Positions 52,579 through 63,339 of a DNA stretch of 64,000 nt are shown piece after piece. Below the pieces are notes generated by a model, which had not been told where the DNA came from, made no database searches, and worked only from the letters and a program-made list of their open reading frames with translations. The stretch is from Thermoanaerobaculia bacterium (lineage in GTDB: Bacteria; Acidobacteriota; Thermoanaerobaculia; Gp7-AA8), in assembly GCA_017883235.1 (NCBI GenBank), contig JADGNY010000002.1:1-64000 (forward strand), given 5' to 3'. Made by a program: the position numbers and the translations under genes. Numbering within the stretch: position 1 is the first letter of the stretch; each line of letters starts with the position of its first letter.

Positions 52579-53748
52579 ATGGTCCTCTTCAACTACGCCA
52601 CCAAAGAGATCACTGCGAAGATTGTCTACTACGGCCCGGGTCTCTGCGGCAAGACGACGAATCTGCAGTTTGTCTATGACTCGCTGCCGTCGAACAACAA
52701 GAGCAAGATGCTCTCGCTGGCCACGAAGACGGATCGCACGCTCTTCTTCGATTTTCTCCCTCTCGACCTCGGCAAGATTCGCGGCATGCGCACCAAGCTG
52801 CAGCTCTACACGGTGCCGGGGCAGGTCTACTACAACTCCACGCGGCAGCTCGTGCTGAAGGGGGCCGACGGCATCGTCTTCGTCGCCGACAGCCAGGACC
52901 ACGCCACCGACGCCAACATTGAGTCGCTGCAGAACCTCGAGGACAACCTCAAGCGCCAGGGCGTGCGCATCCGCGAGATTCCGCTGGTGATGCAGTTCAA
53001 CAAGCGCGATCTGTCCAACGCTCTGCCGGTCGCGGCGATCGACGCCGAGGTGAACAAGCTCGGCGTGCCGCATTTCGAATCGGTGGCGACCATGGGCCTC
53101 GGCGTGGAAGAGACGCTGAAGGGGATCACGCAACTGGTCCTGGCCCATCTCGTCAAGAAGTACGGGCTGGAAGGCTCCGAGCCGAGCGAGCGCGACATCC
53201 AGATTCTGAATGCCGCGGTTGCGCAGGAGCCGAAACCTCCCGATACGTTGTGGGACGAGGACGATGTCTTCGCCGAGCCCCCTCCGCCTCCACCGGCCTC
53301 GGCGTTCGCGCTCGACGACATCAGCGGCGCCGAGGACATCCCGCTCGTTCCGACGGAACTGATCGGCTCTCCACCCCCTTCGCCCCCTCCAGTGTCGCCT
53401 CCGCCAGCCGCCGAACCGTTCGAGGATTTCGAAGACTACTTCGCCAGCCCGCCGCCGATGCCCGCACCCGCAGCACCGCCGTCGTCATCGGGCATCTCGG
53501 TGCGCGGCTCCACATCGGCCCTTGCCCCTTTGAGCGAACCAACTGAGGTCCCGATGATGTCGATCGAGATCCCGCTCCCCGACGGCATTCTCAGCTCGCT
53601 CCCCGACCTCAGCGTCCCCGCCGAACGCCGGGCCTCCGACGGACTGGTCAAAGAAGTGACGGTCCCGCTCAATCTGACGATGGAGGAGCTCCGCCAGCAT
53701 CGGCGGCTGCGGCTGAAGATCACGCTGGATGTGAATCTGCTGTCGTGA
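52579..53748 (+). CDS. MglA-like small GTPase with long proline-rich tail
   Basis: A 389-residue protein. Residues 1-200 are an MglA-type Ras-like GTPase, which in other bacteria sets cell polarity and motility direction: P-loop GPGLCGKTT (19-27), switch region LYTVPGQVYYN, and NKRD in VMQFNKRDL. MglA is normally about 195 residues; here a Pro/Ala/Ser-rich acidic linker (about 215-345) and a conserved-looking end (VPLNLTMEELRQHRRLRLK) follow. No MglB partner gene is adjacent. The tail could be a docking arm. Confidence 0.9.
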   Translation: MVLFNYATKEITAKIVYYGPGLCGKTTNLQFVYDSLPSNNKSKMLSLATKTDRTLFFDFLPLDLGKIRGMRTKLQLYTVPGQVYYNSTRQLVLKGADGIVFVADSQDHATDANIESLQNLEDNLKRQGVRIREIPLVMQFNKRDLSNALPVAAIDAEVNKLGVPHFESVATMGLGVEETLKGITQLVLAHLVKKYGLEGSEPSERDIQILNAAVAQEPKPPDTLWDEDDVFAEPPPPPPASAFALDDISGAEDIPLVPTELIGSPPPSPPPVSPPPAAEPFEDFEDYFASPPPMPAPAAPPSSSGISVRGSTSALAPLSEPTEVPMMSIEIPLPDGILSSLPDLSVPAERRASDGLVKEVTVPLNLTMEELRQHRRLRLKITLDVNLLS

Positions 53749-53903: not shown

Positions 53904-53993
53904 GGAGGAGTGGCCGAGTGGTTTAAGGCAGCGGTCTTGAAAACCGCCGTACCTGCAAGGGTACCGTGGGTTCGAATCCCACCTCCTCCGCCA
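53904..53993 (+). tRNA. tRNA-Ser (anticodon UGA)
   Basis: A complete 90-nt class II tRNA with encoded CCA: acceptor GGAGGAG / CTCCTCC, anticodon stem GCGGT / ACCGC with loop CTTGAAA (anticodon TGA), a long variable arm (ACCTGCAAGGGT), and the T-arm GTGGG TTCGAAT CCCAC. It reads UCA and related serine codons. Its 3' end is an integration site (see the duplicated 28 bp at 56943-56970). Confidence 0.96.
53966..53993. other. attL-like site: 3' end of tRNA-Ser
   Basis: 28 bp covering the T-arm, acceptor strand and CCA. Identical to 56943-56970. Confidence 0.88.
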
Positions 53994-54255: not shown

Positions 54256-54720
54256 ATGTCGACGCTAAAGTTTCTATTCGCCCTGGGCGGTGCAATCTAT
54301 GTGATCGCTACCGGAATGCGGGCGGTTAACGAAGACGAGTGGGGACAGTTTGCGTGCGGATGCTGTATCGTGCCCGTCCTCGCTTTCGCGATAGCTCCTC
54401 TCCTGTGGACTGACCTCCATCCGAACACTCCAAATGTACTAAACGGCGTAGTTCACCCTTTATTCGATGCGCTAATCGGCGGCCTCATGTCTGTGGGGGC
54501 AGTTTTAATGTCGGGTATCGTGAACTACCGATTGAACAAGGAACAACGTGCCTATAACGACCTCATCAAAGGTCGGGGAGCGTCAAATCTGGATAGGGCG
54601 CACAGGCCCGCCACACCGGTGTTGGAGCGTATTCTCTCGCATCCTCTCGTGTCCCTTCTCGCCTTCATCGCGTCCATCCTCACAATCCTAGCCTTCTACT
54701 TTCAATTCCTCCGGCGGTGA
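54256..54720 (+). CDS. Island membrane protein, unrecognised
   Basis: A 154-residue protein with about four hydrophobic segments: STLKFLFALGGAIYVIATGM, CGCCIVPVLAFAIAPLLW, ALIGGLMSVGAVLMSGIV and VSLLAFIASILTILAFYF. A charged stretch (NKEQRAYNDLIKGRG) lies before the last helix. First gene of the tRNA-Ser island on the plus strand. Its small size and position beside a HEPN-like protein would suit a membrane sensor or effector of a defence module, but there is no direct evidence. Confidence 0.72.
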   Translation: MSTLKFLFALGGAIYVIATGMRAVNEDEWGQFACGCCIVPVLAFAIAPLLWTDLHPNTPNVLNGVVHPLFDALIGGLMSVGAVLMSGIVNYRLNKEQRAYNDLIKGRGASNLDRAHRPATPVLERILSHPLVSLLAFIASILTILAFYFQFLRR

Positions 54721-54889
54721 TGCGTGGTCTCCCCGCTGGGAGTTCATTCAGAACCTTCAAGGTCGTCGAAGGCTGAACGAGGTTCATCAGCTTGAGATCG
54801 CCGACAGCAAGTCGTCCGCGTGCGGACTATTTGCTTCCCTTCGGAGACGTATGCGCGTATCGGCGAGCTTCTTGCGTATCCCGTACGTG

Positions 54890-55072
54890 ATGGCAAAGCG
54901 ACCAGACATCCTCCAGAAGTTAGATCATGCGAAGCAGCGCGCCCGTAACGAAACGCCTGAGTTGCAACAGCTCTACGCGGCCTACGGAATCCTCTACCTC
55001 GATGTCATCGACGGCAATCTGGACGACGCGATCCTGCGAAACCTCGTCAAGGTGACGATGGCGAAATCGTGA
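54890..55072 (+). CDS. Small helical protein of the island
   Basis: About 60 residues from MAKRPDILQKL; the frame is open from ATG at 54851 (73 residues). Charged and helical (LDHAKQRARNETPELQQLYAAYG) with no recognised domain. It overlaps the end of the convergent 571-residue gene by 26 bp. It could be an antitoxin-like partner. Confidence 0.5.
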   Translation: MAKRPDILQKLDHAKQRARNETPELQQLYAAYGILYLDVIDGNLDDAILRNLVKVTMAKS

Positions 55073-56762
55073 CCAGAAAGTGCGCATGAAGGCTATCCAG
55101 CAGTCGTGTCGCCCTCGCGAGGAGGTCCGTGAAGACCAACGACAGCGGTTTCGTACCGATACCGACTGCAGCTGACGCCTTCTGATAACCTGCCCCTTTG
55201 CGGTGGCCGACACCCGTCGAACGCAAGGACTGCAAGTTCCGAAGAAACTTCACGTGCACATCGGCATCCGGGAGTCCCTCGCTGGTGATGAACTCCTGCA
55301 GCTTAGTGATGCCCGGCACGTCCTTCGTAGCACCACGATTGATGAGTGCTTCCTCGTTGATCGAATCATTCAGGAGCTTCGTGAGCGATAGGACGAGGCC
55401 ATCGAACTCTGCCTGTTCATCGGTCATGGGGATGCGCAAGGCAGTGAAGTTATGCGTATCTCCGGCGTGCAGCGGCCGGAATAACTGCCATCCGAAGCAT
55501 TCCGCCCACGCCTCTTGAAACTGCACGAATCGTTGCTTGAACACCAAGTCGCCGCGCTCCGCGGCGGTGAACTGGGCGAGCATGCTGCGACGGAAGTGCA
55601 CTTCGCTAACCGTGCCGTCCGGGGGGACGTTGTAGCTGCGCCAGTACTTCTGCTCTTCAAGCGGCAAGCGTCCGAGGTCGCCAAGGTGCACGATGATGTA
55701 ATCAGGGCCATTGTTGTCCAGCCGCAAGCTCCACAACGCGCTGCAGGTCAGCTCTCCGTCGATGACGGCGTACTTTGCTGGTTGGGCGAAGTACTTCGTG
55801 AGTACGTCGCGGCGGAAGAAAACCAGCGTAACGAAGTGTGGCGCACCCCTGTTCTTGCCGAAGTGGTTCGCGAGCTGCTCCGGGTCGCACGTGAACTCGC
55901 GCAGCTCACCTTGATCGGTGCGGCCGATGATGAACTGCTCGTGCTGCTTTGCTTCGTTGTACGGCCAGATGCCGGATTGCTCCTTGGGCAGCGGCGGAAC
56001 GTAGCGCTTGCCGATCAGGCGGGAGTACGTGTCGCTACCGGCTTTGAAACTCTCCTGCACCGTGTACTCATACGCTAGGAGCTTCCGACGTACTTCGACG
56101 CGCTGCTCCTCCGGCGGGATCTCGTCAAGCGCGAGTGGTGAGAAGACATAGCTGTCGATGCCCACGCTCAAATGCATCCGCTTGATCGCAAGAAACTGCC
56201 GGACGGCGTAGGTCTTCACGTCCACGTGGTCATCGCCGAGGCGCGCGATAACTTCCTCGCACCCGCGATCATTCACTTTGATGAAGACGCTCCGCAACGG
56301 GTCGAAGCTGAGGTTGTGGAAGAGTCGGAACTCTTCAAGCAACTCGACCGCCTTGGGCCGATGATCGTGAAACAGCCGGACGAGCACCAACGGCTCCACA
56401 CCCATTTGGCCGAAGCGGTCGTAACCAACCTTGCCTCCTCGCATGAAGCACGAGGGACCGCCGTCACCGATACTGAGATCAAAGCCCAGGCCGGCCTGAT
56501 ACGCCTTCAGACGCCTGGTAGGAACGAGCGCGCTGAAGATCGTCTTGGTGTGCACATCATCCCCTTCGACGTGGTACACGGTCGTCCACTCTTGCGATCC
56601 CACGCTCTCAAGCCAGGCACGGTGTTCTCCTTGGAGTACTCGTTCGCGCTCGGTCACGATGTCAGTCCTCAGCCAGGTTGTGTTAAATCGTGGCCGGTTG
56701 AACAGTAATTCCAGAGCGGCGTCGGCGTCGCGTGCTGGGGCCCGAAGAGAGGATCCCGGCAT
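55047..56762 (-). CDS. 571-residue island protein with C-terminal HEPN-like R-x5-H motif
   Basis: No recognised full-length family. The N-terminal 230 residues contain beta-rich segments (TVYHVEGDDVHTKTIFSAL, VLVRLFHDHRP); the middle has FHVTLV-like blocks and EYTVQESFK; the C-terminal 130 residues are helical. Near the end, LRSTGVGHRKG supplies Arg514-x5-His520, the RNase signature of HEPN domains, in the usual place ahead of a final helix pair. HEPN proteins act as RNases in abortive infection and other phage defence systems. The start ATG at 56762 has no clear ribosome site. Main gene of the tRNA-Ser island. Confidence 0.78.
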   Translation of the reverse strand: MPGSSLRAPARDADAALELLFNRPRFNTTWLRTDIVTERERVLQGEHRAWLESVGSQEWTTVYHVEGDDVHTKTIFSALVPTRRLKAYQAGLGFDLSIGDGGPSCFMRGGKVGYDRFGQMGVEPLVLVRLFHDHRPKAVELLEEFRLFHNLSFDPLRSVFIKVNDRGCEEVIARLGDDHVDVKTYAVRQFLAIKRMHLSVGIDSYVFSPLALDEIPPEEQRVEVRRKLLAYEYTVQESFKAGSDTYSRLIGKRYVPPLPKEQSGIWPYNEAKQHEQFIIGRTDQGELREFTCDPEQLANHFGKNRGAPHFVTLVFFRRDVLTKYFAQPAKYAVIDGELTCSALWSLRLDNNGPDYIIVHLGDLGRLPLEEQKYWRSYNVPPDGTVSEVHFRRSMLAQFTAAERGDLVFKQRFVQFQEAWAECFGWQLFRPLHAGDTHNFTALRIPMTDEQAEFDGLVLSLTKLLNDSINEEALINRGATKDVPGITKLQEFITSEGLPDADVHVKFLRNLQSLRSTGVGHRKGAGYQKASAAVGIGTKPLSLVFTDLLARATRLLDSLHAHFLVTISPSSP

Positions 56763-56773
56763 TGAGATTGAAA

Positions 56774-56932
56774 GTGCCAGGCCTTCGTTTTTCGCACGAC
56801 GCTAAACTACTGAGCCGAGACGTTTTACTGGATGCTGATTTCGGCGTTGGATCGGTGCGATCGTTATTTGGACCAATCAGCTAGTGGCCGGCGTGGCAAA
56901 GAAGAGCGGATTCGAAGGCCTGACCCTTCGGT
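56774..56932 (+). repeat. 159-bp direct repeat, copy A
   Basis: About 95% identical (eight differences) to 57763-57921. Both encode in the same frame a 36-codon tail, VPGLRFSHDAKLL onward to FGPIS and a stop, and differ mainly by conservative substitutions. Copy A ends just before the attR-like site, inside the island. It is probably the 3' end of an otherwise lost gene. Confidence 0.88.
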
Positions 56933-56942
56933 GCCAGGGGCT

Positions 56943-56970
56943 GTGGGTTCGAATCCCACCTCCTCCGCCA
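56943..56970. other. attR-like site: duplicated end of tRNA-Ser
   Basis: GTGGGTTCGAATCCCACCTC then CTCCGCCA, identical to the last 28 nt of tRNA-Ser. There is no tRNA body upstream of it, so it is an integration scar rather than a tRNA gene. Confidence 0.9.
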
Positions 56971-57740: not shown

Positions 57741-58058
57741 CGAGGATGGGAGAAGATTGAAGGTGCCAGGCCTTCGTTTTTCGCACGACGCTAAACTACT
57801 GAACCGGAACGCTTTACTGGATGCCGATTTCTGCGTTGGATCGGTGCGATTGTTATTTGGACCAATCAGCTAGTGGCCGGCGTGGCAAAGAAGCGCGGAT
57901 TCGAAGGCCTGACCCTTCGGTCCCACGTCCGGATTCGAAGGCCTGACCCTTCGGTCCCACGTCGTTCGCGATGAGGATCGCCGGGCGCAGACACGCCGCC
58001 GGCAGGCGCTGAACATCGTTACGCGTCGGAGGACTTTGACTTCGCGTATTCTCAACTG
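57578..58058. other. 481-bp gap with fragment and repeats
   Basis: Apart from the fragment at 57574-57740 it holds copy B of the 159-bp repeat (57763-57921) and the 34-bp tandem duplication at 57896-57963. The last 95 bp before the glycosyltransferase-like gene should hold its promoter; none is recognised. Confidence 0.75.
57763..57921 (+). repeat. 159-bp direct repeat, copy B
   Basis: Partner of 56774-56932. Its right end runs into a perfect tandem duplication of 34 bp (57896-57929 and 57930-57963, each with the GAAGGCCTGACCCTTC hairpin). Outside the island. Confidence 0.88.
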
Positions 58059-59343: not shown

Positions 59344-61788
59344 GTGCATGATGTCGCCCGAATGGCGGCGATGAGCACGATCGGCACGGTGTCTGCCCTG
59401 CTTGGACCAGCCGTCTCCGCCACCGCGCTCTATCTCGTCACCGCCTGCGCGCTGGGGTTCCTCGCGCACCGGTTTGTCCGGCCGATGTCGAAGACGGCAG
59501 CGCTCATCCTGCTGCTTCTTCCCCTTTGCTTCACGGGGCGCGCGCTCCTGACCGGCCGGGTGTATGCGCCGATCGATTTCCCGTACGTCGCGCAGCCGCT
59601 GCTGTCGTTTCGCGCCGATTTCAGGGTCACGGGGCTGCATAACGGGGTGCTCAGCGATGTCTACAGCCTCAACATCCCGTGGCGGTACGCCGCGCGGCTG
59701 GCGATTCTTCGCGGAGAGTGGCCCTTGTGGAACCCGTATGTGGCGGCGGGCGACATTCTGGCCGCGGCCGCACAGCCGACTCCCTACGAGCCGCTCTTTC
59801 TGATCAGTCTCCTCCTCCCCATGCCGGTGAGTCTGACCTTTCTCGCCGCGATCACCTTCTTCCTCGGCGGGCTGCTCATGTTCCTCTTCCTGAGAGAGAT
59901 CGCCTGCTCGGAGCGGGCGGCGCTGGTGGGAGCCGCGGCCTGGACGTTCTGCGGGTTCCTGGTCTTCTTTCTGGACTGGGTGATCACGCCGGTGAACGTC
60001 TGGTTTCCTCTGGTCCTTCTCGGTGTGAGGAGGATGGTGCGCACCCCCGGGTTGCGTGCCATGAGCATCCTGACGGTGGCGTTCTCGATGATGCTTCTCA
60101 ATGGCCACCCGGAGAGCGCGCTTCACATCGTCGCCGTCGGCCTGGTGTGGGCGGCGGCGGAGTTGTGGCGTGTCCGGTTCCGTGGAATGACGCGATCCAT
60201 ACCGCTGGCGACTGCCGGCGGCGTCCTGGCTCTTGCCATTACCGCGATCTACATGTTTCCGATCGTTGAGGCCATCCCGCAAACATCGGAGCATCGCTTC
60301 CGGGAGAACGTCTTCGCGCACGCGCGGCGGTCGGGCCCGCCGGCCGAGGTGATGCAGAGACTGTTGCGGCAGTTCGTGCCGTTCATCATCGGGGAACCGC
60401 AGAGGCAGTGGCGTCCCAGGCCGACCGAGCTCAATGTCATCCCGGAGAGCATGTACGTCGGTAGCGCCGCTCTCTCGCTGGCGGTCTTTGGCCTCTGGCG
60501 TTCACGGTGGCGCGGCAAATGGCTGGTGTTGGCGCTGGTGCTCTCCGGAATCGCGATCGGTATCCAGCTTCCGCCGTTCGGCGACCTTCTCGCCAAACTG
60601 CCTTTGTTCGACATCGCTCTCAACGAACGGCTGATTCTGGTCTCGGCATTGGGACTGTGCATTTTTGCAGCGCTCGGGGTCGACGCCATCGTCAATGAGC
60701 CAAGCGGGCGCCGGCCGGCGCTGGCCGCCTTGGGCGTCTTTTTGTTTCTTCTCGCTCTTTGCGTTTACCTGTATCCCGGGATGCGCGCCCGCGGGCTGAC
60801 CGCCGGGTATCTATACGGGGCGATCACACTCCTTCTTCTACCGCCGATTCTTGTCGCAGCGGCGTGCTCGCCGCGCCGTCCCGCCGCCCTCGGGCTCGCG
60901 CTTCTGATCATTGTCACCGGCGAGCGCACTCTGCAATCAGGCGACTTCAACCCCACCCTGTCAGCCAGAATGTTTTATCCGGCGGTCCCGCTGTTCAGCC
61001 ATCTCCAGCATAGTGACGATCCATACCGGATCGTCGGGGTCGGTGATGTTCTTCCGCCGAATATCGCCACCATGTATCAAATGGAAGACGTGCGCCAATA
61101 CACGGCCATGACCTTCACCGCGAATTACGATCTGCAGCCGTTGTGGTCCGCGCACCAGCCGGTCTGGTCGAATCGGGTCGACGATCTCACCGCGCCGTTT
61201 CTGTCACTGATGAACGTACGGTATGCCTTCGCCGAGAGCTCCGTCGTGCCGCCGCCACACTGGTCACTTGTCGCATCCGACCGCGGGACGCAGCTATTGG
61301 AGAACCAGAACGTTCTCCCGCGTGCATTCATCCCGAGGGCGGTCACGATCGGAGACAACCCCTTCATCTGGGAAGGGATCCAGAAGGAGAAGGACTTCAG
61401 CGCCCGAGGCTGGATCGTCATTCCGGGAGAGAGTCCTCGGCAGGAGCCGAATGGGTCGGGATCATTGACGGTCCGAAGACAGGGCATGGGAGCTCTTGCC
61501 ATCCGGTCCCATCTCGATTCGAACGCCTGGGTGGTGGTGTCGGAAACGGCGTGGAAGGGATGGCGTGCGCACGTCGACGGAGAGCCCGCCAAGCTGAGAA
61601 TCGCAGATGGGATGTTTCTGGCGATGTATCTTCCGGCCGGAGATCATGACGTTCGCCTGACCTATTGGCCGCGTTCCTTCGTCGTCGGTAGAGCGATCTC
61701 GGCGGTCACGCTCCTGCTGATCGGCGTGAGCGCGGGGATCGTACTGCTGCGCCGCCGCCGAGGGGCGTTGAGAGCTACGATGCCGTAG
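59344..61788 (+). CDS. YfhO family membrane protein
   Basis: An 814-residue membrane protein of the YfhO type, implicated in glycosylation of surface polymers. It has an N-terminal hydrophobic region with about 14 helices (about 15-535), a conserved loop (PIDFPYVAQPLLSFR near 78-92, SLNIPWRYAA), and a C-terminal beta-rich periplasmic domain ending in one more helix and RRRRGALRA. WVVVSETAWKGWRAHVDG and YLPAGDHDVRLTY are typical of the family's end. Start GTG at 59344; ATG at 59362 is the alternative. Overlaps the next gene by one base. Confidence 0.85.
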   Translation: MHDVARMAAMSTIGTVSALLGPAVSATALYLVTACALGFLAHRFVRPMSKTAALILLLLPLCFTGRALLTGRVYAPIDFPYVAQPLLSFRADFRVTGLHNGVLSDVYSLNIPWRYAARLAILRGEWPLWNPYVAAGDILAAAAQPTPYEPLFLISLLLPMPVSLTFLAAITFFLGGLLMFLFLREIACSERAALVGAAAWTFCGFLVFFLDWVITPVNVWFPLVLLGVRRMVRTPGLRAMSILTVAFSMMLLNGHPESALHIVAVGLVWAAAELWRVRFRGMTRSIPLATAGGVLALAITAIYMFPIVEAIPQTSEHRFRENVFAHARRSGPPAEVMQRLLRQFVPFIIGEPQRQWRPRPTELNVIPESMYVGSAALSLAVFGLWRSRWRGKWLVLALVLSGIAIGIQLPPFGDLLAKLPLFDIALNERLILVSALGLCIFAALGVDAIVNEPSGRRPALAALGVFLFLLALCVYLYPGMRARGLTAGYLYGAITLLLLPPILVAAACSPRRPAALGLALLIIVTGERTLQSGDFNPTLSARMFYPAVPLFSHLQHSDDPYRIVGVGDVLPPNIATMYQMEDVRQYTAMTFTANYDLQPLWSAHQPVWSNRVDDLTAPFLSLMNVRYAFAESSVVPPPHWSLVASDRGTQLLENQNVLPRAFIPRAVTIGDNPFIWEGIQKEKDFSARGWIVIPGESPRQEPNGSGSLTVRRQGMGALAIRSHLDSNAWVVVSETAWKGWRAHVDGEPAKLRIADGMFLAMYLPAGDHDVRLTYWPRSFVVGRAISAVTLLLIGVSAGIVLLRRRRGALRATMP

Positions 61789-62504
61789 TGCGGGCCATCG
61801 ACTCGAAGCTCTTCGTTCTCTCCGCGGAGATCGATCGCGAGGTCGATGATTACCGCGCGTCCGTTCCCGCGATCCGCAGCGCGGAGTCGATCGCGTTTCG
61901 CAAACCGGTGACGATGTTCATCGGCGAGAACGGATCGGGGAAGTCGACGCTCGTCGAGGCCATCGCCATCGCGGCGGGATTCAATCCCGAGGGGGGGTCG
62001 AAGAACTTCCAGTTCGAAACGGTGCGGAGGGAGGTGGAGCTCGATCCGCTGTTGCGTCTCGTGCGCGCGCCGCGGCGTCCGTCCGACGGCTACTTTCTTC
62101 GCGCCGAGAGTTTCTTCAACGTGGCCACGGAGATCGACCGCCTCTGCGTCACGCGCGGATACGGCGGCCAGTCGCTCCACGAACAGTCGCACGGCGAGTC
62201 GTTCATGGCCCTGCTCCTCAACCGATTCCTCGGCGACGGTCTGTACGTCCTCGACGAACCGGAAGCCGCTCTCTCCCCGATGCGGCAGCTATCGATGCTC
62301 GCTCGCATCCACGATCTCGTCCGCGCCGGCTCACAGTTCATCATCGCCACCCACTCACCGATCCTCATGGCGTATCCCGACGCCACTCTCCTTTTGATGG
62401 AGCAAACCATCCGCGAGGTCGCGTACGAAGAGACGGAACACTACACGGTGATGCGCGATTTCTTCAATCACCGCGCGGCGATGCTGCGGGAGTTGATGGG
62501 GTAG
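61788..62504 (+). CDS. AAA family ATPase (SMC/ABC-like, predicted ATPase)
   Basis: A 238-residue ATPase: Walker A GENGSGKST near 46-54, a degenerate signature HGESF, Walker B LYVLDEPEAAL and the H-loop ATHSP. This is the short, stand-alone form of the AAA_21/AAA_23 class without a coiled coil or nuclease domain. GTG start overlaps the YfhO stop by one base. Similar ATPases occur in several defence and repair systems, but also alone in chromosomes; the role is unknown. Confidence 0.88.
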   Translation: MRAIDSKLFVLSAEIDREVDDYRASVPAIRSAESIAFRKPVTMFIGENGSGKSTLVEAIAIAAGFNPEGGSKNFQFETVRREVELDPLLRLVRAPRRPSDGYFLRAESFFNVATEIDRLCVTRGYGGQSLHEQSHGESFMALLLNRFLGDGLYVLDEPEAALSPMRQLSMLARIHDLVRAGSQFIIATHSPILMAYPDATLLLMEQTIREVAYEETEHYTVMRDFFNHRAAMLRELMG

Positions 62505-62598
62505 TGGAGCAGCCGAACTCGAAGTGGGCCCGCGAGATGCCTTCCGGCTCGCCCCGCTCAAAACGCTTCTCGCGATACCGAAACTGGAAACCTGTGGG

Positions 62599-63339
62599 AT
62601 GATATCAACGTCAAACACTCCGATGAGTTGGAACGCACGCAGCCTCCGTCTGACAATTTTTCCGGCGGGCGAAGGCAACTGGCCATCGTGGAGCGACGTC
62701 ACCGGCGCTACAGCCGAAACGTCCCTGACGCGTGCGGGGCTGATCCAAGAGGAGGGAGCTTTTGCCGATGGGCAATTGAGTCTATTGCGGCAAATTCCTC
62801 TCCGGCTCGACCTACTCTACTCGGCGGCAATATCGCCGACGCCGGAGTCAACTAGCGGCCCTCGGAGCGTAGGTCAGCTCGACACCGCTTTGGTCGTGTT
62901 CACCCCTCTCGCGGACCACTTTCTGGTCAGCGCCCCCCAGGCACTCAGAATTGCTTTCGGACTGCAACTCGTCAAACCATCGCGGAGTCGTGCCGAAGCG
63001 TACGACATCCTTAACGCTTCGATTTGTAACGCAAAGTTTGATTTCGAGAATGCTCAAGAGTTTTCGTATCAAATCAACCGTCCAAGAAAATCGACCGGTG
63101 TCGATAACGACCTCCTTCTAAACCGACTCTCAAAATGGTCGGCACTTATGGAAAGGCTTGTGGTTGACGATCTTTCTAGCGGTCGAGTCGTCACGGCAAG
63201 TGAATCTTATGGTGCCTCGCTGGAAATAGACGTCAACACGGCTGCGGATCGAGGAGATCCTCTTCAAAACCCTGCTGAACTGTTTAGGGAATTGACACGG
63301 CTTGCCGTCGAAATAAGCGAGAAGGGAGACGTGAAGTGA
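62599..63339 (+). CDS. Unrecognised protein, first gene of a coupled pair
   Basis: About 246 residues from ATG at 62599 (ATG at 62623 is an alternative; the open frame reaches back to 62524). It begins with a beta-rich stretch (SLRLTIFPAGEGNWPSW) and ends in a helical part. No signal peptide or membrane helix. Its stop overlaps the GTG of the next gene. The segment from 62600 to the window end is less GC-rich than the rest, so the pair may be acquired. Confidence 0.65.
   Translation: MISTSNTPMSWNARSLRLTIFPAGEGNWPSWSDVTGATAETSLTRAGLIQEEGAFADGQLSLLRQIPLRLDLLYSAAISPTPESTSGPRSVGQLDTALVVFTPLADHFLVSAPQALRIAFGLQLVKPSRSRAEAYDILNASICNAKFDFENAQEFSYQINRPRKSTGVDNDLLLNRLSKWSALMERLVVDDLSSGRVVTASESYGASLEIDVNTAADRGDPLQNPAELFRELTRLAVEISEKGDVK

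Follow-up and report, generated by a model that had tools for sequence, protein, structure and literature searches.

The question raised by this locus is whether an open reading frame (ORF) of 571 codons, found in the 64,000-nucleotide stretch of DNA that was analysed (the window), encodes an antiviral RNase of the HEPN type, and whether its product acts alone or together with the small genes beside it. HEPN RNases form one of the major classes of antiviral effectors, and the family represented here has stayed uncatalogued despite its occurrence in many phyla, on plasmids and in restriction operons. All results described below were obtained by computation, from the family and its conserved motif to the predicted fold, the defence genes that accompany the relatives and the att-like repeats. 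An antiviral function is proposed from genomic context.

A small island at a tRNA-Ser gene

The ORF was confirmed at 55047-56762 on the minus strand, and the plus strand over this region is broken by stops. The true start is likely a GTG codon further in, because this codon is preceded by AGGA, because most relatives are approximately 530-600 amino acids long, a range that includes the resulting 536-residue form, and because residues 1-35 of the longer ORF have pLDDT values below 50 in an AlphaFold2 model and are predicted to be disordered. Residue numbers in the text are those of the 571-residue ORF.

The gene is part of an island of about 3 kb, which is real and more sharply defined than in the preliminary description. 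It is bounded by two identical 28-nucleotide direct repeats (Table 1), the first of which is the 3' end of a tRNA-Ser(TGA) gene. The repeat is present in exactly two copies in the 6.9-Mb genome, and these are 2,977 bp apart from start to start. The G+C content between them is 57.8%, versus 62.7% for the window. The locus thus has the marks of a tRNA-integrated island, with the 3' end of the tRNA gene repeated directly at its two borders, a reduced G+C content and a patchy presence. Only three credible ORFs are enclosed by the repeats, namely the HEPN gene and two small ORFs for 154 and 73 amino acids. None of the three has a Pfam integrase match, and there is no recognised defence gene beside the HEPN gene inside its own island.

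The block formed by a GTPase gene (52579-53748) and the tRNA-Ser(TGA) gene is conserved in seven related genomes. Nothing downstream of this block aligns among these seven relatives, and the comparison gives no clean empty site. A protein search of one genome of the same genus (G254) did not find the HEPN gene. There, a second copy of tRNA-Ser(TGA) is located about 5.2 kb further on (L102:1762-7149), and the site is occupied by a different element that encloses a homologue of PDC-M05A (a PADLOC candidate) and a 1395-amino acid P-loop protein. As judged from these two sequences, the tRNA-Ser(TGA) site appears to serve as an insertion point for small cargos of defence genes.

Other family genes adjoin tRNA-Ser, tRNA-Glu, tRNA-Met and tRNA-Asn genes (in L048, L054, L027 and L031), and two of them start within some 35 nucleotides of the tRNA (L048, 7686-7809; L054, 7837-7947). 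Repeats of the tRNA end are not found beside the family gene in any of these four loci.

Two further observations concern the surroundings of the gene. A 172-nucleotide sequence just 5' of the long HEPN ORF has a second copy 1 kb on, outside the island, and weaker copies exist elsewhere in the genome. Farther along the window (61788-63339), a gene for an ATPase resembling AAA_21/AriA and PtuA is followed by one for a 271-amino acid protein that belongs to no family, and the two may form a defence pair.

Table 1. Features of the island and of the HEPN-family gene, in window coordinates.
Feature	Position	Strand	Basis or remark
tRNA-Ser(TGA), integration site	53904..53993	plus	ARAGORN, Rfam
attL-like 28-nt repeat GTGGGTTCGAATCCCACCTCCTCCGCCA, tRNA 3' end	53966..53993	plus	exact repeat
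154-aa protein with 3-4 hydrophobic segments, orphan, putative passenger	54256..54720	plus	hydropathy
73-aa ORF, orphan	54851..55072	plus	26-nt tail-to-tail overlap with the HEPN gene
HEPN-family gene, likely extent	55047..56657	minus	536 aa, GTG start at 56657
C-terminal HEPN-type helical domain, residues 404-564	55071..55553	minus	AlphaFold2, Foldseek, motif position
R514-x5-H520 motif, predicted RNase active site	55203..55223	minus	invariant in 15 sequences unselected by motif
N-terminal beta-rich region, residues 45-396	55575..56630	minus	AlphaFold2; proposed sensor or regulator
172-nt repeated sequence 5' of the long ORF	56765..56936	plus	second copy (94%) at 57754-57925
attR-like identical 28-nt repeat	56943..56970	plus	exact repeat

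A widespread family with a conserved R-x5-H motif

There are about 85 loci with relatives of the window protein, and they are distributed patchily over many bacterial phyla and occur in one archaeal bin. Whole-protein searches recovered relatives in five other genomes of the same phylum and in 22 plasmid records, and, with a cutoff of E<=1, none among 50,697 phage records. With the single sequence as query, no relative was seen in the genome contigs or the viral contigs. An alignment was needed to find them, and it gave 64 loci in genome contigs and six in viral contigs (IMG/VR).

The window protein has no match at all in Pfam, PADLOC, NCBIfam or PHROGs, and the matches of its relatives in these collections are weak, scattered and confined to single members. 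The family is widespread and unnamed, with no credible model in Pfam, NCBIfam, PADLOC 2023 or PHROGs. A literature search via the locus tags of the relatives found nothing relevant. In a quick tree, the window copy is placed beside a Patescibacteria protein and the phyla are intermixed, which suggests horizontal movement of the family genes.

Some members depart from the usual size. Two have an additional C-terminal region of approximately 237 amino acids (L072:2429-4777 and L073:7953-10322). Short forms of about 280-340 amino acids on IMG/VR contigs (L086-L089) are reduced to the middle part plus the HEPN region, carry RxxxxH and adjoin a conserved gene for 209-217 amino acids. An ORF of 941 amino acids (L066) was considered as a fusion and rejected, since by eye it is probably an upstream extension of the frame.

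The feature that first drew attention to the protein, R514-x5-H520 (LRSTGVGH), is present, with R514 encoded by 55221-55223 and H520 by 55203-55205. We do not take its presence by itself as evidence, because the window protein has five R-x4-6-H pairs versus 4.5 expected by shuffling. Its significance comes instead from conservation among sequences that were collected without regard to the motif. In the 15 sequences from whole-protein searches (16-39% identity), the 514/520 pair alone among the five is invariant, all 15 sequences carry Rx5H or Rx4H, and R514 and H520 are among only 10 invariant columns of 571. In the full set, the arginine column is conserved in 78 of 78 sequences and the histidine column in 74 of 78, the remaining four having Rx4H shifted by one; for the 64 genome-contig loci this conservation is non-independent evidence, as they were retrieved with the motif as search pattern. 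Also nearly invariant are the polar residue that follows the arginine (S515) and two acidic residues (D454 and D466) in the core helix preceding the motif, where HEPN domains have an acidic residue in helix 2.

Predicted structure

An AlphaFold2 model built from 58 sequences has a pLDDT of 89.5 and a pTM of 0.81 for the full protein, and the C-terminal domain modelled alone reaches a pLDDT of 93.9. The domain is predicted to consist of helices 404-423, 450-466, 500-516 and 540-564, wherein R514 is placed at the end of the third helix and H520 in the loop that follows. This is the architecture described in a survey of HEPN proteins, which have two alpha-hairpins with Rx4-6H at the end of helix 3 or in the loop to helix 4 (PMC3710099).

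Among the 50 Foldseek matches listed for the domain, the four with a probability of at least 0.3 are all HEPN proteins (HepT 6m6u, 1wwp, SO_3166 5yep and 2hsb). These HEPN entries carry the highest probabilities at E values of 1.1 or more, and no match in the list has an E value below 0.1, so that none is significant. HEPN models of Pfam, NCBIfam and PADLOC do not match the window protein, and none is listed among the family matches of its relatives. The preliminary description had proposed profile searches as a check and had named, as grounds for abandoning the HEPN call, a C-terminal region that does not fold as a HEPN bundle or an R and H that are not conserved in homologues. The profiles gave no support. 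Neither of the two grounds applies, and the call holds on the invariant R and H and on a predicted helical bundle that carries them at the HEPN position, with HEPN proteins as the most probable, though not significant, of the listed Foldseek matches. In our judgement, the C-terminal part is well supported as a HEPN-type domain with predicted RNase activity.

The N-terminal region comprises approximately 350 residues that are beta-rich and mostly folded with confidence in the model. As first described, it matches no known family, and a search for internal duplication (hhalign) was negative. For the full model, Foldseek gives nothing at E<=0.001. Its best match is Avs3 (8dgc; E=6.5e-3, probability 1.00, 230 columns), with a TM-score of 0.19 and an rmsd of 12. 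Because 8dgc is absent from the 50 matches listed for the HEPN domain modelled alone, the likeness to Avs3 probably sits in the N-terminal half. We regard this match as a lead only. The region is a candidate for a new sensor fold.

Proposed function and genomic company of the relatives

The explanation that we favour, at a probability of roughly 0.7, is that the gene encodes a single-gene abortive-infection effector, with a predicted C-terminal RNase and a putative N-terminal sensor. The N-terminal region would sense a cue of infection, most likely a phage protein, and this would release the RNase by way of a presumed trigger that acts on an autoinhibited and perhaps dimeric protein. The released enzyme might then cut RNA in the infected cell and cause growth to stop. 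The gene would travel between bacteria as compact cargo, which in this genome probably entered at the tRNA-Ser(TGA) 3' end. As a single gene with a named predicted catalytic pair, it is directly testable. A more specific version is tentative. Perhaps these proteins are one-protein immune sensors, spread across phyla, in which a conserved phage protein is recognised directly by the beta-rich fold, possibly through an element that also occurs in the terminase-sensing Avs3, and the fused HEPN RNase is then activated; such sensors might repeatedly have become guards within type I restriction operons.

The company of the relatives supports the defence-type setting that had been suspected for this gene. 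Type I restriction-modification (R-M) genes are found in 11 loci (L007, L017, L028, L029, L030, L037, L038, L052, L062/L003, L068 and L073), where the contig of L003 is contained in that of L062, an Acidobacteria MAG, and the two are counted together. HSDR_N is found in five of 133 neighbours versus approximately 1.8e-4 per gene in the phylum of the window (P ~6e-11), a control rate that is derived from 68 matches listed in 99 genomes and an estimate of ~3,800 genes per genome. Relatives are also located in GMT islands (L008, L065), beside CBASS-like SAVED, NTase and ThiF genes (L014) and beside type IIG-like enzymes (L041, L060, L069). Other neighbours include Mrr_cat (L020), nSTAND3-Mrr (L068), Abi_C (L037) and HerA proteins.

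The R-M association raises the possibility of a PrrC-like guard, wherein the type I restriction enzyme binds and silences the RNase, which fires when a phage anti-restriction function disables the enzyme. Family genes are indeed located within hsdR/M/S operons (R-S'-fam-M-S in L017, M-x-S-fam in L030, M-S-..-R-fam in L052, and also L073 and L037), and those of L029, L030 and L052 overlap HsdS or HsdR by a few codons. In PrrC, too, the HEPN domain is C-terminal, and its gene lies within a type Ic operon (PMC3710099). Most relatives, however, have no adjacent R-M genes, the HSDR_N matches of the genome under study are on other contigs (C81, C115, C199), and the family lacks the ABC ATPase domain of PrrC. 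This reading is rather doubtful. Under the favoured reading of a single-gene effector, a disturbed type I R-M complex could still be the cue for the restriction-linked relatives.

It is unlikely, more so than the guard, that the family serves to protect mobile elements against each other, in competition between plasmids and islands, instead of acting against phages. The plasmid records, the GMT islands, the adjoining tRNA genes and the lack of matches among the phage records point in this direction, whereas chromosomal R-M and CBASS-like company is a typical antiviral context and relatives do occur on six IMG/VR contigs. The two readings are compatible and not exclusive.

A different view of the island was that a sensor, a membrane component and an RNase form one abortive-infection module. 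The small membrane protein and the 73-residue protein do exist. Both are encoded on the strand opposite to the HEPN gene and convergent to it, and the former has a weak match to DUF998 (E=0.019). Neither has a relative beside any family member, a search of 297 genomes from the phylum gave no substantial one, and the HEPN gene is found without them in the approximately 85 other loci. The three-gene module was therefore rejected, and on these sequence comparisons the two small proteins are best treated as passengers. The same observations bear on the suggestion that the locus is a toxin-antitoxin system or an addiction module that belongs to the mobile island and in which one of the two small proteins is the antitoxin. 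HEPN toxins are common in such systems (PMC3710099) and the small ORFs share the island, but their convergent overlap on the other strand, their orphan status and the lack of a conserved partner across the family make this very improbable. An RNA antitoxin, as in AbiF, was considered and rejected, since Rfam gives nothing besides the tRNA and a weak match antisense to it.

With neighbour genes called by a simple longest-ORF rule instead of a gene finder, a close same-strand neighbour is present in 46 of 78 loci and none is present in 32. Clustering of the neighbours revealed no partner protein common to the whole family, and for this reason the gene looks self-sufficient.

Some subsets of loci have recurrent neighbours. 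In nine Poribacteria loci (L033, L034, L035, L036, L039, L043, L063, L074 and L081), a PIN gene (Pfam) for 136 amino acids (139 in L036) adjoins or overlaps the family gene at its end, and the family protein of L039 has a tail of approximately 50 amino acids that may be antitoxin-like. Another conserved gene is located 29-37 bp upstream of the family gene in L055 (6719-7900), with relatives in L051, L056 and L059; it has no Pfam match and, by eye, a PD-(D/E)XK-like stretch.

Least probable of all is a helical RNA-binding or structural protein in which R-x5-H is incidental, a reading that accords with the lack of a profile match and of an E-value-significant structural match to HEPN but is countered by the finding that, at 16-39% identity, it is exactly the R and the H of the HEPN catalytic position that are invariant.

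Comparison with known systems

The favoured single-gene effector can be compared with several known systems. The anticodon nucleases PrrC and RloC have a C-terminal HEPN RNase, and PrrC resides in type I R-M operons, as do several family members. Their N-terminal part is an ABC ATPase, whereas the present protein has no AAA or ABC match and a beta-rich region instead. An ATPase is likewise missing relative to Avs3, the best match of the whole model.

ApeA also combines an N-terminal region with a C-terminal HEPN domain, and in epsilonproteobacteria its gene is part of R-M operons (PMC3710099). The collected ApeA proteins have approximately 450-490 amino acids and a motif of about RNYxTH, versus RSxGxxH in the present family. 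The kinship with ApeA-like proteins that had been considered at first was rejected, as profile-profile comparison (hhalign) gives a probability of 0.7% over the whole length and 0.2% for the domain, and neither ApeA_NTD1 and HEPN_Apea in Pfam nor ApeA in PADLOC matches the window protein.

HEPN-MNT toxins (5yep, 6m6u and 8xeh) rank high among the solved structures matched to the domain, with target-normalised TM-scores of up to 0.54. There is no gene for an MNT antitoxin in the window island, and none recurs in the neighbour clusters of the family.

A precedent for a solo gene of this type is Tha, a single-gene HEPN system of 301 amino acids from S. aureus prophages that is triggered by a phage tail protein (PMC11087260), a likeness that is drawn from the published description of Tha. 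The N-terminal part of Tha is predicted without confidence, whereas that of the present protein comprises about 350 residues that are confidently beta-rich. Both consist of one protein with an N-terminal part that has no known domain and a C-terminal HEPN domain, which carries Rx4H in Tha, and 5yep, which is among the four HEPN matches of the present domain, is similar to the HEPN domain of Tha as well.
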